From Desulfotomaculum sp. (GTDB lineage Bacteria; Bacillota; Desulfotomaculia; Desulfotomaculales; Desulfallaceae), in the NCBI GenBank assembly GCA_016841675.1, contig JAENYQ010000028.1:1-38322 (forward strand): a stretch of DNA of 38,322 nt. Reading direction: 5' to 3'. The notes beneath the pieces are model-generated. The model did no database searches. It saw only the letters and a program-made list of their open reading frames with translations, and was not told the origin of the DNA. Below, in pieces: positions 23,068-34,029 of the stretch (position 1 is the stretch's first letter; the number at the start of each line of letters is the position of its first letter). The position numbers were made by a program, and so were the translations under genes.

Positions 23068-24255
23068 TCAGGCACGCATCTTGGCAGCGAAAGATTCTCC
23101 AAATGCCTCGCATTCTTTTAAGTTTTCATCTGTCGGATCATATTTCATCTTAATGGATGGTACTAGAACATTAAAACCTGCCTCGGCGAGCCTTTTTTCA
23201 ACTATCACCGGCGATTCCCCGCTCCACCCGTAGGAACCGAAAGCGGCAGCCGCCTTTTCTTTAAATTTCAGCCCCTTAATCACTTCTAGCATTGCAGCGG
23301 TGGAACTGAGAATCCCGCCGTTAATGGTGGAACTGCCCATGATTAACCCTTGCGCTTTAAAAATTTCGGTGATCACGTCGTTTTTATCGCTAGTGCCGAT
23401 GTTCAAAACCTTGGCCCCTATCCCCTTGTTTTCCAGTCCTCGGGCAATGGCCAGGGCCATCTTCCTGGTGGCACCCCACATGGTATCATACAGCACGGCA
23501 ACCGTTCCTTCATGGTAGTTGTCAGCCCACTGGTCATATTTTTCAACAATCTGCATGGGATTGTCACGCCAGATAATTCCGTGACTGGGGGCAATCATAT
23601 CAATGGGGACGTTTAAACCCTTAATTTCCTTTAACTTGGCCCGGACCAGCTTGCTGAACGGAGTCAGGATGTTGGCGTAATATTTCAGGGCTTCCTGGAA
23701 CAACTCACCCTGGTCCACCTGCTCGTTGAACAGATAAGGGGATGCATAGTGCTGACCGAAGGCGTCGTTGGAGAGCAGCACATTGGCACCCGCCACGTAG
23801 GTAGCCATGTTATCCGGCCAGTGCAGCATCGGTGTTTCCACGAAAACCAGCTTGTAATCCCCCAGGTCCACGCTGTCCCCTGTTTTGACAATATTAAAAT
23901 TCCAGTCCTTATGGAAATGCCCCTTAATCATGGCCGCGCCGTTTTTAGTGCAGTAAATCGGGGTATCAGGTATTTTTTCCATCAGGTACAAAAGGCTGCC
24001 GGCATGGTCCTGTTCGGTATGATTAATCACAATCAAATCAATATTTTGCAGACCAAAATCCTGATCTATTTGTTTGACGAAATCCTCGTGAAAAGGCGTC
24101 CAAACAGTGTCCACCAAGGCTATCTTTTGGTCTTTGATTAAATAGGAATTGTATGTAGAACCCCGGTGGGTAGAATACTCCTCGCCGTGAAAGTGTCTTA
24201 GTTCCCAGTCTTTAACCCCAACCCAGAATATTTTATCTTTAATTTCAATCACCAT
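23068..24255 (-). CDS. fprA: A-type flavoprotein (flavodiiron protein, FprA)
   Basis: A 395-residue flavodiiron protein. The diiron ligands are all present: His79, Glu81, Asp83, His84 (HTEQDHAGS), His145 (MLHWPDN), Asp164 (SNDAFGQH) and His225 (PSHGIIW). The C-terminal flavodoxin domain starts near 250 (VAVLYDTMWGATRKMA, GSSTINGGI, GSYGWSGE). It reduces O2 to water or NO to N2O in the cytoplasm of anaerobes. ATG 24255 follows AAAGGGGGTAGTG; a longer frame lacks an RBS. Divergent from rubrerythrin, together forming an oxygen-protection module. Confidence 0.95.
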   Translation of the reverse strand: MVIEIKDKIFWVGVKDWELRHFHGEEYSTHRGSTYNSYLIKDQKIALVDTVWTPFHEDFVKQIDQDFGLQNIDLIVINHTEQDHAGSLLYLMEKIPDTPIYCTKNGAAMIKGHFHKDWNFNIVKTGDSVDLGDYKLVFVETPMLHWPDNMATYVAGANVLLSNDAFGQHYASPYLFNEQVDQGELFQEALKYYANILTPFSKLVRAKLKEIKGLNVPIDMIAPSHGIIWRDNPMQIVEKYDQWADNYHEGTVAVLYDTMWGATRKMALAIARGLENKGIGAKVLNIGTSDKNDVITEIFKAQGLIMGSSTINGGILSSTAAMLEVIKGLKFKEKAAAAFGSYGWSGESPVIVEKRLAEAGFNVLVPSIKMKYDPTDENLKECEAFGESFAAKMRA

Positions 24256-24386
24256 CACTACCCCCTTTAATTGTATTTTTGTGAACCATTTATGGAATAA
24301 TTTTATTATGTACCTGGGCCAAGATTCTATTACGGTAATCACAATGCCGATGTGATATTGCTCACGGCTATTATATCATTTTAACC

Positions 24387-24543: not shown

Positions 24544-25077
24544 ATGAGTTTAAAAGGAACCAAAACCGAAGCTAATTTAAAAGCTGCTTTTGACGGTGAA
24601 AGCCAAGCCCGCAATAAATACAACTACTGGGCCAGTGCAGCTAAAAAGGAAGGCTATGAACAAATCGCCGGCATCTTTACTGAAACCGCCGATAATGAAA
24701 AAGAACATGCCAAAAGAATTTTTAAGTTTTTAAATGGTATTACCGATACCAAAACACACCTGAAAGAAGCTGCAGCAGGCGAAAACTACGAGTATACCAG
24801 TATGTATTTGGAGTTTGAAAAAGTGGCCCGGGAAGAAGGATTTGAAGAAATAGCTGATGTGTTCCGGGAGATTGGTGAAGTGGAAGAAGAACACGAAAAA
24901 CGTTTCCTGGCCCTACTCAAAAATATTGAAGAAGGTAAAGTGTTTAAGCGGGATGAAGAAGTTAAATGGAAGTGCCGCAACTGCGGTTATGTGCACAAGG
25001 GCAAAGAAGCCCCTGAAGAATGCCCAGCCTGCGCCCATCCCCAAGCCTACTATGAGCTGCTTTGTGAAAATTATTAA
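24544..25077 (+). CDS. rbr: Rubrerythrin
   Basis: A 177-residue rubrerythrin. The N-terminal ferritin-like domain has the diiron carboxylates in [44 protein letters not shown] and [10 protein letters not shown]; the C-terminal rubredoxin domain has two CxxC motifs, CRNCGY and CPACAH. It reduces peroxide in the cytoplasm, usually with electrons from rubredoxin or ferredoxin. The RBS AAGGAGG is 7 nt from ATG. A terminator follows directly. Confidence 0.95.
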
Positions 25078-30749: not shown

Positions 30750-33362
30750 TCAAGCCCGGTCGTTGGCATAGGCCCGGTCAAGAATTTCGGCCAACTCTTC
30801 AATTAACGGCATCCGGGGGTTGGTGGTGGTGGATTGGTCAGCAAAGGCGTTTTCGGCCAGCTCCGGCACCCTGCTTTTGAACAAGTACTTATCCACCCCG
30901 CAGGCCGCAATGTTACCTGGAACACCCACCCGAGCCCGTAAATCTTCCACTGCTTTAACTAGGCTGTTAACTCCCTCTTTGACTGTGCTCGCCGGCAAAC
31001 CTAAAAAGACCGCCAACTGCTGGTATTTCTCCGGCGCATGAAAGTATTCGTATTGCGGAAACGAAGCGAACTTGGTGGGCGGGGAAGAGTTATATCTGAT
31101 TACGTGGGGCAGCAAAATGGCGTTGGCCCGGCCGTGGGAGATGTGGAATTCGCCCCCTACCTTGTGGGCCAGGCTGTGGCAAACGCCCAGAAAGGCGTTT
31201 GTAAAGGCGATGCCGGCAATACAGGATGCATTATGCATCTTGCCGCGGGCTTCCCGGTTATCTTCGTCCAGGCAGCTGGCAGGCAGGTACCGGAATACCA
31301 GCTCCGCGGCTTTTAACGCCATCGCATCAGTATAATCAGAAGCCATCACCGAAACGTAGGCCTCCACGGCGTGGGTCAGCACGTCCAAGCCGGTATCCGC
31401 CGCTACTTCTGGCGGCATGGTGACAGCAAAGTCCGGGTCGATAATGGCCACGTCCGGGGTAAGTTCGTAGTCGGCCAGGGGGTATTTAACATCCTCACTC
31501 CGATGCGTGATTACCGCAAAGGCACTTACTTCCGAACCGGTGCCGCTGGTGGTGGGAATGGCTACCAGCCGGGCTCGGCGGCCCAACTTGGGATACTTAT
31601 AGGTCCGTTTGCGAATATCAAGGAATTTAAGGCGCAGGAAATCAAACTCCACTTCGGGGTGCTCATAAAACAGCCACATGCCCTTGGCGGCGTCAATGGC
31701 TGAACCGCCTCCCAGGGCGATAATGGTATCGGGACGGAACTGCTTCATCAGGGCAACTCCCTTCTGCACCGTCTCCAGCGAGGGGTCGGGTTCCACATCG
31801 GCAAACACCTCGATGTTGACCCGCTCCATCCGTTTGTTTAAGTGGTACACCACCTTGTCCACAAAACCGAGCCTGACGATCCCCTGATCTGTTACTATAA
31901 CCACCCTGCCCAGTCCCTGCATCTTTTCCAGGTACTGGACCGCCCCGTGGGCAAAATAAATGCGCTCGGGCACTTTGAACCACTGCAGTTTCTCCCGCCG
32001 GCCAGTGACACGCTTAACGTTGATCAGGTTGTCCACACTGACATTGGAAGTAGTGGCGTTGTGCCCCATGGAGCCACAACCCAGGGTCAGGGAGGGTACG
32101 TTGACATTGTATATATCACCGATGGCGCCGTGGGTGGCAGGTGCGTTGATCATGATCCGGCCGGTGCGGATACGGCTGGAAAAAAGGTCGATTACAGACC
32201 GGTTTTCCGAATGCAGCACTGCCGAATGCCCCAAGCCGCCGAAGTTCACTATTTCCTCGCAGCGTTTGATACCTGCTTGATAATCACTTACCTGATAACA
32301 GGCCAAGATAGGACTCAGCTTTTCCATGGACAGGGGGTGCAGGGGGCCAACACCATCCAGGGGAGCAACCAGAACCTTGGTCCCAGGAGGCACCTCAAAG
32401 CCCGCCATTTGTGCAATATCCCGGGCCGAACGGCCGACAATACTGGGGTTCAGAGAACACTCCCCTTCCTCACCCTTAGCCGCCAAGGCTTCCAGCCGGG
32501 CCACCTCTTCGGTGTTTAAAAAATAGCAGCCGTACTCCTGCATCAACGCAGTGGTTTCTTCATAAATATCTCGGTCTATAACTACCGATTGTTCGGAAGC
32601 GCAGATTAAACCATGATCAAAGGTTTTGCTTAAAATCAGGTCGGTAACTGCCCTTTTGAGCCGAGCCGATTTTTCTATGTAACATGGCACATTGCCCGGC
32701 CCCACTCCAAGGGCGGGCTTGCCCGTGCTGTAAGCCGCCTGCACCAAGCCGGCACCCCCGGTGGCCAGGATCAGGTGCACCCCGGGATGGGCCATTAAAT
32801 ACCTGGTAGCCTCAAGGGATGAATGCTCCAACCAGCCGATACAATTGTCCGGTGCCCCTTCCGCCACTGCGGCATCACGCATCACTCGGGCCGCCGCCGC
32901 GCAGCAGCCGGCAGCGCCGGGGTGAAAACTAAATATCACCGGGTTGGCCGTTTTAATGCAAATTAAAGATTTAAACAGTGTGGTGGAAGTGGGGTTGGTC
33001 ACCGGAATTACCGCGGCAATCACCCCTACCGGTTCGGCTACCTCGGTGTAGTCGTTTTCCTCGTCCATCCGGAGTACACCCACAGTCTTCTTGTACTTAA
33101 TGCTGTGGTATACCGATTCGGTGGCGAATATGTTTTTAATCATTTTGTCCTCGTAAATACCCCGGCCGGTTTCTTGCACCGCCAGACGGGCCAGTTCCAT
33201 GTGTCTGTCCAGACCAGCCAAGGCCATAGCCCGCACAATGCCGTCGATTTGCTCCTGGGACATGTTGGCCATTTCCCGTCGCGCCTCCTCGGCCCTTGCT
33301 ACAAGCCCATCTACAACGCGCAGCAAATCACCATCCGAAACCGCTCCATTTTGCACGCTCAT
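30750..33362 (-). CDS. adhE: Bifunctional acetaldehyde-CoA/alcohol dehydrogenase
   Basis: An 870-residue AdhE of full length. The N-terminal aldehyde dehydrogenase half has VIPVTNPTSTTLFKSL, the GLICASEQS catalytic Cys near 254 and GGAGLVQAAYSTGKPALG. The C-terminal iron alcohol dehydrogenase half has GGGSAIDAAKGMW near 550, PTTSGTGSEV, and the metal ligands in DVLTHAVEAY and HSLAHKVGGEFHISHGRANA. It reduces acetyl-CoA to ethanol (or the reverse) with NADH and forms spirosomes. RBS GGGGGTGG precedes ATG 33362. It is divergent from the tyrosinase-like gene; I found no clear Rex site. Confidence 0.96.
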   Translation of the reverse strand: MSVQNGAVSDGDLLRVVDGLVARAEEARREMANMSQEQIDGIVRAMALAGLDRHMELARLAVQETGRGIYEDKMIKNIFATESVYHSIKYKKTVGVLRMDEENDYTEVAEPVGVIAAVIPVTNPTSTTLFKSLICIKTANPVIFSFHPGAAGCCAAAARVMRDAAVAEGAPDNCIGWLEHSSLEATRYLMAHPGVHLILATGGAGLVQAAYSTGKPALGVGPGNVPCYIEKSARLKRAVTDLILSKTFDHGLICASEQSVVIDRDIYEETTALMQEYGCYFLNTEEVARLEALAAKGEEGECSLNPSIVGRSARDIAQMAGFEVPPGTKVLVAPLDGVGPLHPLSMEKLSPILACYQVSDYQAGIKRCEEIVNFGGLGHSAVLHSENRSVIDLFSSRIRTGRIMINAPATHGAIGDIYNVNVPSLTLGCGSMGHNATTSNVSVDNLINVKRVTGRREKLQWFKVPERIYFAHGAVQYLEKMQGLGRVVIVTDQGIVRLGFVDKVVYHLNKRMERVNIEVFADVEPDPSLETVQKGVALMKQFRPDTIIALGGGSAIDAAKGMWLFYEHPEVEFDFLRLKFLDIRKRTYKYPKLGRRARLVAIPTTSGTGSEVSAFAVITHRSEDVKYPLADYELTPDVAIIDPDFAVTMPPEVAADTGLDVLTHAVEAYVSVMASDYTDAMALKAAELVFRYLPASCLDEDNREARGKMHNASCIAGIAFTNAFLGVCHSLAHKVGGEFHISHGRANAILLPHVIRYNSSPPTKFASFPQYEYFHAPEKYQQLAVFLGLPASTVKEGVNSLVKAVEDLRARVGVPGNIAACGVDKYLFKSRVPELAENAFADQSTTTNPRMPLIEELAEILDRAYANDRA

Positions 33363-33507
33363 CCGCCCACCCCCGCAGTTTTCTCTACTAACCTAAGTAT
33401 CCCACGGTCGCCAACGGTTAATGCGGTTTTTAAAATACCTATTCCTCACCCCTAAACGCAAATTTCATATCTTAATACTATCTAAAAACAAGCCAAGGAG
33501 GAAAAAA

Positions 33508-34029
33508 ATGAGCAGGCCTAGTCTGAACAATCTTAGTGTTGATGACCGGAGGTTATTGGCCAGTCTGATTCAGCAATATGCAACACCGCAAATTATAGAT
33601 TTACACTGGAACGCCGCCCAAGCCGGCGCCCACAGCGACCCAATCATGTTTCTTACATTCCATCGGGAGTATATCGGCGGGTTGGAAACTTTTCTATTGG
33701 AACAGGGTTTCCCGCAGTTCGTACCGCTGCCGGCATGGAATCCGGTTGAACCAATATCGGGGGAGTTTAATATACCCAATGTCGGCCCCCGGCGGTTGCG
33801 CAATTTAAACCCCAATGTCAGTTTTTCACCGGAGTTTGACCCGGAGAACTTAAGCAGTTTCAGGACCATCACCGAACTGGGTGAGGCGCTAATGACCAGG
33901 CACAACCTGGTGCACCAAAGAATCGGGGGGATTATGAATAATATGCGGCTGGCTCCATTGGCCCCGATTTTCTGGCCGTTTCACAGCTTCATTGATGATA
34001 TATATTATAACTGGCAGATTGCCCAATAA
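33508..34029 (+). CDS. Minimal tyrosinase-like binuclear copper protein
   Basis: A 173-residue protein with a tyrosinase-type pattern: His33, His42 and His52 (FLTFHREYIGGLE, the CuA FLPWHRxYL motif), and His132, His136 (HNLVH) and His159 (FWPFHSFIDDIYYNWQ, the CuB third-ligand motif). All six possible copper ligands are thus present, in a protein much shorter than common tyrosinases (about 280 or more). No signal peptide is seen. ATG 33508 has AAGGAGG 7 nt upstream, which rules out the longer frame from 33421. Tyrosinases use O2, odd in an anaerobe. Substrate and activity are unknown. Confidence 0.65.
   Translation: MSRPSLNNLSVDDRRLLASLIQQYATPQIIDLHWNAAQAGAHSDPIMFLTFHREYIGGLETFLLEQGFPQFVPLPAWNPVEPISGEFNIPNVGPRRLRNLNPNVSFSPEFDPENLSSFRTITELGEALMTRHNLVHQRIGGIMNNMRLAPLAPIFWPFHSFIDDIYYNWQIAQ

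Follow-up and report, generated by a model that had tools for sequence, protein, structure and literature searches.

The window, the whole stretch of 38,322 nucleotides analysed here, comes from a Desulfotomaculum sp. contig (JAENYQ010000028.1) and contains a single-copy gene for a protein of 173 residues with a tyrosinase domain (Table 1). The sequence-only reading had placed all six histidines of a type-3 copper site in it, and they lie exactly where proposed, at positions 33, 42, 52, 132, 136 and 159; the protein has no further histidine. It was also described as very small, and the shortest tyrosinase chain among the sequence-matched solved structures is 281 residues long. There is no cysteine, and the Cys-His thioether link that is a feature of some tyrosinases (excerpts of PMC11608171) is therefore impossible. 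Hydropathy reveals no signal-peptide-like stretch at the N-terminus. The other elements noted from the sequence are all present, namely the strong ribosome-binding site, the adhE gene next door (upstream and divergently transcribed) and, 8-9 kb away, the genes for a rubrerythrin and a flavodiiron-type protein. A methyltransferase gene lies downstream on the other strand, further neighbours include a BON protein and others, and no caddie protein was recognised adjacent to the gene. The flavodiiron and rubrerythrin genes, together with relatives that include Desulfocucumis palustris, point to a host that is probably anaerobic.

Table 1. Coordinates of the tyrosinase gene, its candidate control elements, its active-site codons and selected neighbours in the window
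Feature	Position	Strand	Basis or remark
Minimal tyrosinase-domain gene, 173 aa	33508..34029	+	ORF, start ATG, stop TAA; Pfam PF00264 60.3 bits; dN/dS about 0.1
Ribosome-binding site AGGAGG	33496..33501	+	Six bases 5' of ATG
Candidate sigma-K -35 element AC	33448..33449	+	16 bases ahead of -10; sigma-K/sigma-E difference (excerpts of PMC3789822)
Candidate sigma-K/sigma-E -10 element CATATCTTA	33466..33474	+	Starts 42, ends 33 bases before ATG
HisA1, His33 codon	33604..33606	+	Invariant 10/10; aligned with four larger plasmid tyrosinases
HisA2, His42 codon	33631..33633	+	Invariant 10/10; aligns to His60 of B. megaterium tyrosinase
HisA3, His52 codon	33661..33663	+	Invariant, four larger tyrosinases included; aligns to B. 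megaterium 69
Water-keeper position, Glu123 codon	33874..33876	+	Invariant 10/10; aligns to B. megaterium Glu195
HisB1, His132 codon	33901..33903	+	Invariant; aligns to B. megaterium residue 204
HisB1+1 (first activity controller), Asn133 codon	33904..33906	+	Invariant, four larger tyrosinases included; B. megaterium 205
HisB2, His136 codon	33913..33915	+	Invariant; aligns to B. megaterium residue 208
HisB3, His159 codon	33982..33984	+	Invariant; aligns to B. megaterium His231
adhE	30750..33362	-	Divergent, upstream of the tyrosinase gene
Rubrerythrin	24544..25077		
Flavodiiron-type protein	23068..24258		

The protein matches the Pfam Tyrosinase family (PF00264) with 60.3 bits (cut-off 22.6, E 4.5e-16). 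No NCBIfam model reaches its cut-off; the MelC2 equivalog NF047834 scores 30.9 bits against a cut-off of 450, and BagH/FevF matches weakly with a score of 15 against 630. A sequence search of solved structures returns haemocyanin units and tyrosinases with a molluscan haemocyanin ranked first, although haemocyanin chains hold many units whose scores are summed, which affects the top rank. The best of five structural models has a pLDDT of 89.7 and a pTM of 0.88 (the other four score 40-57), and its best Foldseek matches are tyrosinases (E 3.4e-3, probability 1.00, top match 1wx2_A), with none at E 0.001 or below. VIA superposition on the Bacillus (Priestia) megaterium tyrosinase 3ntm_A gives a Z of 14.9 and an rmsd of 2.8 over 168 of the 173 residues. 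Helical bundles may score up to Z 13 by chance alone; given the sequence evidence as well, we take the predicted structural match to tyrosinase to be real. Structure prediction had been proposed as a check and points, in one confident model of five, to a tyrosinase-like four-helix type-3 copper fold, an assignment backed by profile, alignment and predicted structure.

The modelled protein resembles the B. megaterium enzyme (3nm8, 3ntm) in fold (Z 14.8-14.9 and 24-26% identity over 168 aligned residues) and in the spacing of the CuB ligands, and it has equivalents of Glu195 and Asn205. It differs in that the B. megaterium chain is about 285-303 residues long, has 134 residues from HisA3 to HisB1 compared with 79 here, and carries the 7th histidine at the residue before HisB3, which is Phe in the window protein; in the model the loops are trimmed relative to that enzyme, chiefly between the CuA and CuB helix pairs. 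Streptomyces MelC2, to which the top Foldseek match corresponds, has the same domain, but the NCBIfam score lies far from the MelC2 cut-off and no MelC1-type caddie was recognised adjacent. The archaeal tyrosinase mTyr-CNK of Candidatus Nitrosopumilus koreensis is likewise from a prokaryote and bears a separable extension at its C-terminus; excerpts of PMC5722948 give it a core of 303 residues and an extension of 112, whereas the core here is about 172 residues with a PASTA-like extension of about 60 in some members.

The sequence-only reading had staked itself beforehand on conservation of the histidines among homologues, and all six, together with Glu123 and Asn133, are invariant in the ten full-length orthologues. 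Five of them (His33, 52, 132, 136 and 159) are also invariant columns in a MAFFT alignment that includes four larger plasmid-borne tyrosinases, and His42 is offset from its counterparts there. Excerpts of PMC11608171 tie the water-keeper Glu and the Asn at HisB1+1 to phenol deprotonation, treat that Asn as not decisive, and describe in characterised PPOs a conserved 7th histidine just before HisB3, a position occupied by Phe158 in all ten sequences. The Phe, the trimmed loops and the leading rank of molluscan haemocyanin, discounted for its summed scores, would suit a spore protein whose type-3 site holds copper or binds O2 reversibly, as in haemocyanin, with no oxidase turnover. The invariant Glu and Asn pair argues against such a protein, as does the lack of an extra domain over the site in the short members, and we consider it unlikely. 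A loss of oxidase activity, which had also been raised from the sequence, is disfavoured because the six ligands and the Glu123/Asn133 pair are all invariant; loss of function is unlikely.

A protein search finds orthologues in seven of 41 relatives (counting the own genome), and Pfam finds carriers in nine of the 113 genomes of the class. Across 398 genomes of the phylum a profile search matches 13, five with the tyrosinase part, of which two are partial (G191 lacks the CuB half and G139 runs off the end of its contig), and eight in which the C-terminal PASTA-like part alone is matched, within frames of 623-707 residues. The Pfam Tyrosinase model matches in three of the 398 genomes, always a member of the same family as the 173-residue protein, and the named carriers comprise Desulfocucumis palustris along with two Peptococcaceae MAGs. 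The clade is small and patchy and is newly described here. Searches of open-licence PMC papers turned up no account of a tyrosinase of this kind in anaerobic spore-formers. Firmicutes are named without detail among wetland tyrosinase producers in excerpts of PMC10515480. The matching text in a clostridial sporulation review is only a reference to surface display.

The nine other full-length sequences are 63-84% identical to the window protein, and dN/dS is 0.09-0.11 in the four of six pairs with finite dS, the remaining two being saturated. The patchy distribution and the truncated G191 copy would be consistent with an acquired tyrosinase that is in decay or survives as a non-functional relic, but purifying selection at this level and an active site invariant in ten full-length copies largely refute this, and we give it almost no chance of being the right explanation. 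The G191 copy itself (L025, G191:C162) has the CuA half only, in a frame of 108 residues, with a CATANNNTA site remaining at -41, and is probably decaying.

Outside the group, neither phages nor viral contigs contain a match. Plasmids yield one to the window protein, the tyrosinase-like C-terminal part of a 542-residue Halomarina plasmid protein annotated DUF3892 (L058:2023-3651; 95% of the query aligned, 24% identity). A PASTA-bearing orthologue used as query gives weak matches to 11 plasmid records, the majority of which carry an ordinary tyrosinase annotation; the four larger tyrosinases in the MAFFT alignment are taken from these 11.

Six of the ten full-length orthologues continue directly after the tyrosinase domain into an extension of about 60 residues, which is absent from the window protein. 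Four of six scanned proteins match Pfam PASTA at 15.2-18.7 bits, all below the cut-off of 23.2, the other two scanned being short members. A profile built from the six extensions matches PknB PASTA chains (best E 1.2e-5), and in the modelled PASTA-bearing orthologue the extension is mostly at pLDDT 40-79 by block. From these profile comparisons we take the extension to be, probably, a divergent PASTA domain. PASTA is a wall-binding kind of domain.

An operon or partner gene was sought by ORF clustering over 12 neighbourhoods and rejected, as there is no specific shared neighbour beyond same-genus groups. Sharing of specific neighbours is confined to the window and L035, both of this genus, and to a trio of genomes from another genus; the few other shared clusters are of generic kinds, response regulators and sensor proteins among them. 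The adjacency of adhE is therefore uninformative, and because the adhE/methyltransferase arrangement is kept within the genus only, the tyrosinase gene is best regarded as autonomous, with a promoter-like site to itself. Alternatively, the enzyme could be biosynthetic, oxidising phenols or o-aminophenols to make a small molecule or pigment and not acting on spore protein. The o-aminophenol oxidases belong to the same superfamily (SmNspF superposes at Z 13.2, and there is the weak BagH/FevF match), but no biosynthetic genes recur beside the tyrosinase in the 12 neighbourhoods and the NCBIfam score is far under its cut-off; we judge this role improbable. Rubrerythrin and the flavodiiron-type protein in the window, and the missing export signal, would suit an enzyme in the cytoplasm of vegetative cells that consumes O2 or counters oxidative stress alongside those two proteins. 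Against that role stand the lack of a conserved operon or neighbours beyond the genus and the mother-cell class of the promoter-like site, and free quinones would presumably harm a vegetative anaerobe, so that to us it too has a small chance of being correct. The O2 scavenging and storage envisaged in the sequence-only reading gain no specific support, the gene having its own promoter-like site and adhE beside it only in the same genus.

The promoter-like site was compared with the C. difficile consensus, in which, according to excerpts of PMC3789822, the -35 element is AC for sigma-K and ATA for sigma-E and the -10 elements are very similar. The arrangement AC-N15-17-CATA, 36-42 bases before the start codon, occurs in 8 of 12 orthologues (5 of 8 genera) compared with 5 of 111 other genes (Fisher p 5e-7, by-genus binomial 9e-6), and the strict -10 element CATANNNTA in 7 of 12 (4 of 8 genera) compared with 2 of 111 (Fisher p 4e-7, by-genus binomial 7e-6), figures that lean favourable because the scan window was set after the sites had been seen and the own gene is counted among the 12. 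The background consists of 111 ORFs of 100 codons or more, each preceded by an RBS and taken from the neighbourhoods of the orthologues. Of the 12 orthologues, two (L004 and L024) lack CATA in the stretch scanned; CATA is present but AC absent in L014, and in L025 the -10 element has no AC 15-17 bases ahead of it.

A genome-wide search for the site together with a ribosome-binding site is a more independent check. A first-pass pattern based on the -10 element, with no -35, was too weak on its own (12 sites, with the reversed control giving 6); the -35 element was added and the pattern tightened. The resulting strict pattern, AC-N16-CATANNNTA-RBS, occurs 18 times across four genomes, where its reversed control occurs 3 times; in the own genome the counts are 4 and 0. 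Downstream of these sites are the tyrosinase gene in two genomes, a gene for a SipL/SPOCS-type protein, a spore-type protein, in all four genomes searched (Pfam, run on the own-genome copy only, gives it E 5.4e-63), a LysM-BsuPI protein in one genome, and several small unnamed proteins. Six of the 18 sites fit the sigma-K idea poorly, three preceding genes that look by eye like housekeeping genes (Lon-like, asparagine-tRNA-ligase-like and chemoreceptor-like) and three having no downstream ORF found by the script. Among proteins behind sigma-K-like sites, Pfam names the SipL/SPOCS and LysM/BsuPI proteins only, and NCBIfam gave no label to the four proteins scanned. Taken as a whole, the promoter comparison supports assignment of the tyrosinase promoter to the sigma-K class.

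Several sites of this kind precede small genes. Small hydrophobic proteins, some with an NPFSL-type start, lie behind sigma-K-like sites at L057, L066, L075 and L080; they occur in three of the four genomes searched, the two that were scanned have no family match, and all are candidates for spore proteins as yet unnamed. At L052 and L054, CATAGTATA sites precede glycine-rich single-helix proteins of 34 and 37 residues with no Pfam or NCBIfam match, which presumably resemble the YjcZ kind. An identical 44-base site and the start of a 40-residue ORF are present on two own-genome contigs (L048 on C51, L049 on C59), and part of the own assembly may therefore be duplicated.

The gene for sigma-K is found in all 12 carrier genomes, intact and over the cut-off in eight and as pieces or cut copies in four, which is weak evidence because most relatives should have sigK. 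On single contigs, sigK-like halves lie 3-8 kb apart in three genomes (G050:C130:30340-34188, G034:C63:29909-33884 and G048:C17:232170-241061), as if interrupted by a skin-like element, with an intact sigK also present in G034 and G048. The halves are on separate contigs in G015, G027 and G139.

An intact-looking type-3 site has as its most economical function an O2-dependent phenol oxidase of the spore surface, and an N-terminus with nothing like a signal peptide is as expected for a mother-cell coat protein. The missing signal peptide, the sigma-K-type promoter and, in some members, a domain of probable wall-binding type together fit a late mother-cell protein. The spore-coat role suggested from the sequence gains independent support from that promoter and is compatible with the occurrence of sigK in every carrier, the location itself being a prediction. 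The reading we therefore favour is that of a minimal type-3 copper phenol oxidase which the mother cell makes late, from a sigma-K-type promoter, and which is held on or in the spore envelope; we rate its prospects as about even. Speaking against it, most relatives do not have the gene (nine of the 113 do). Sulfide in the habitats of kin would tie up copper.

There are partial precedents for such a spore oxidase. The CotA laccase of B. subtilis is a copper phenol oxidase in the spore coat (excerpts of PMC4822991), as the present protein would be if this reading is right, but CotA belongs to the unrelated multicopper oxidase family and serves as an analogy only. C. difficile, an anaerobe, puts redox enzymes on its spores under sigma-K, although those described in excerpts of PMC3789822 are manganese catalases (CotCB and CotD) and a peroxiredoxin/chitinase (CotE), and not copper oxidases.

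As we envisage it, the mother cell of the sporulating bacterium would make the tyrosinase late, from its own sigma-K-type promoter, and place it on or in the spore envelope, where the copper-loaded site would stay in the Cu(I)-Cu(I) state as long as O2 is absent. Once the spore meets air, the type-3 site would bind O2, and the O2-bound enzyme would hydroxylate or oxidise phenolic groups, whether tyrosyl or not, the coat becoming cross-linked or pigmented and O2 being consumed locally. A more specific version, which we offer tentatively as possible but doubtful, is an air-triggered spore armour: an enzyme preloaded with Cu(I) under sigma-K, inert until O2 arrives, that would then use this O2 to cross-link or melanise the coat, tethered in some species by a PASTA domain.

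It is puzzling that selection should maintain an O2-dependent copper oxidase in an obligate anaerobe, and with the promoter evidence the puzzle becomes a testable idea about how spores survive in air. The core of about 172 residues with its intact-looking site would also offer a compact scaffold on which to learn what parts of a tyrosinase monophenolase activity requires. If the air-triggered version is true, this would be an oxygenase in an anaerobe whose purpose is to react to air.
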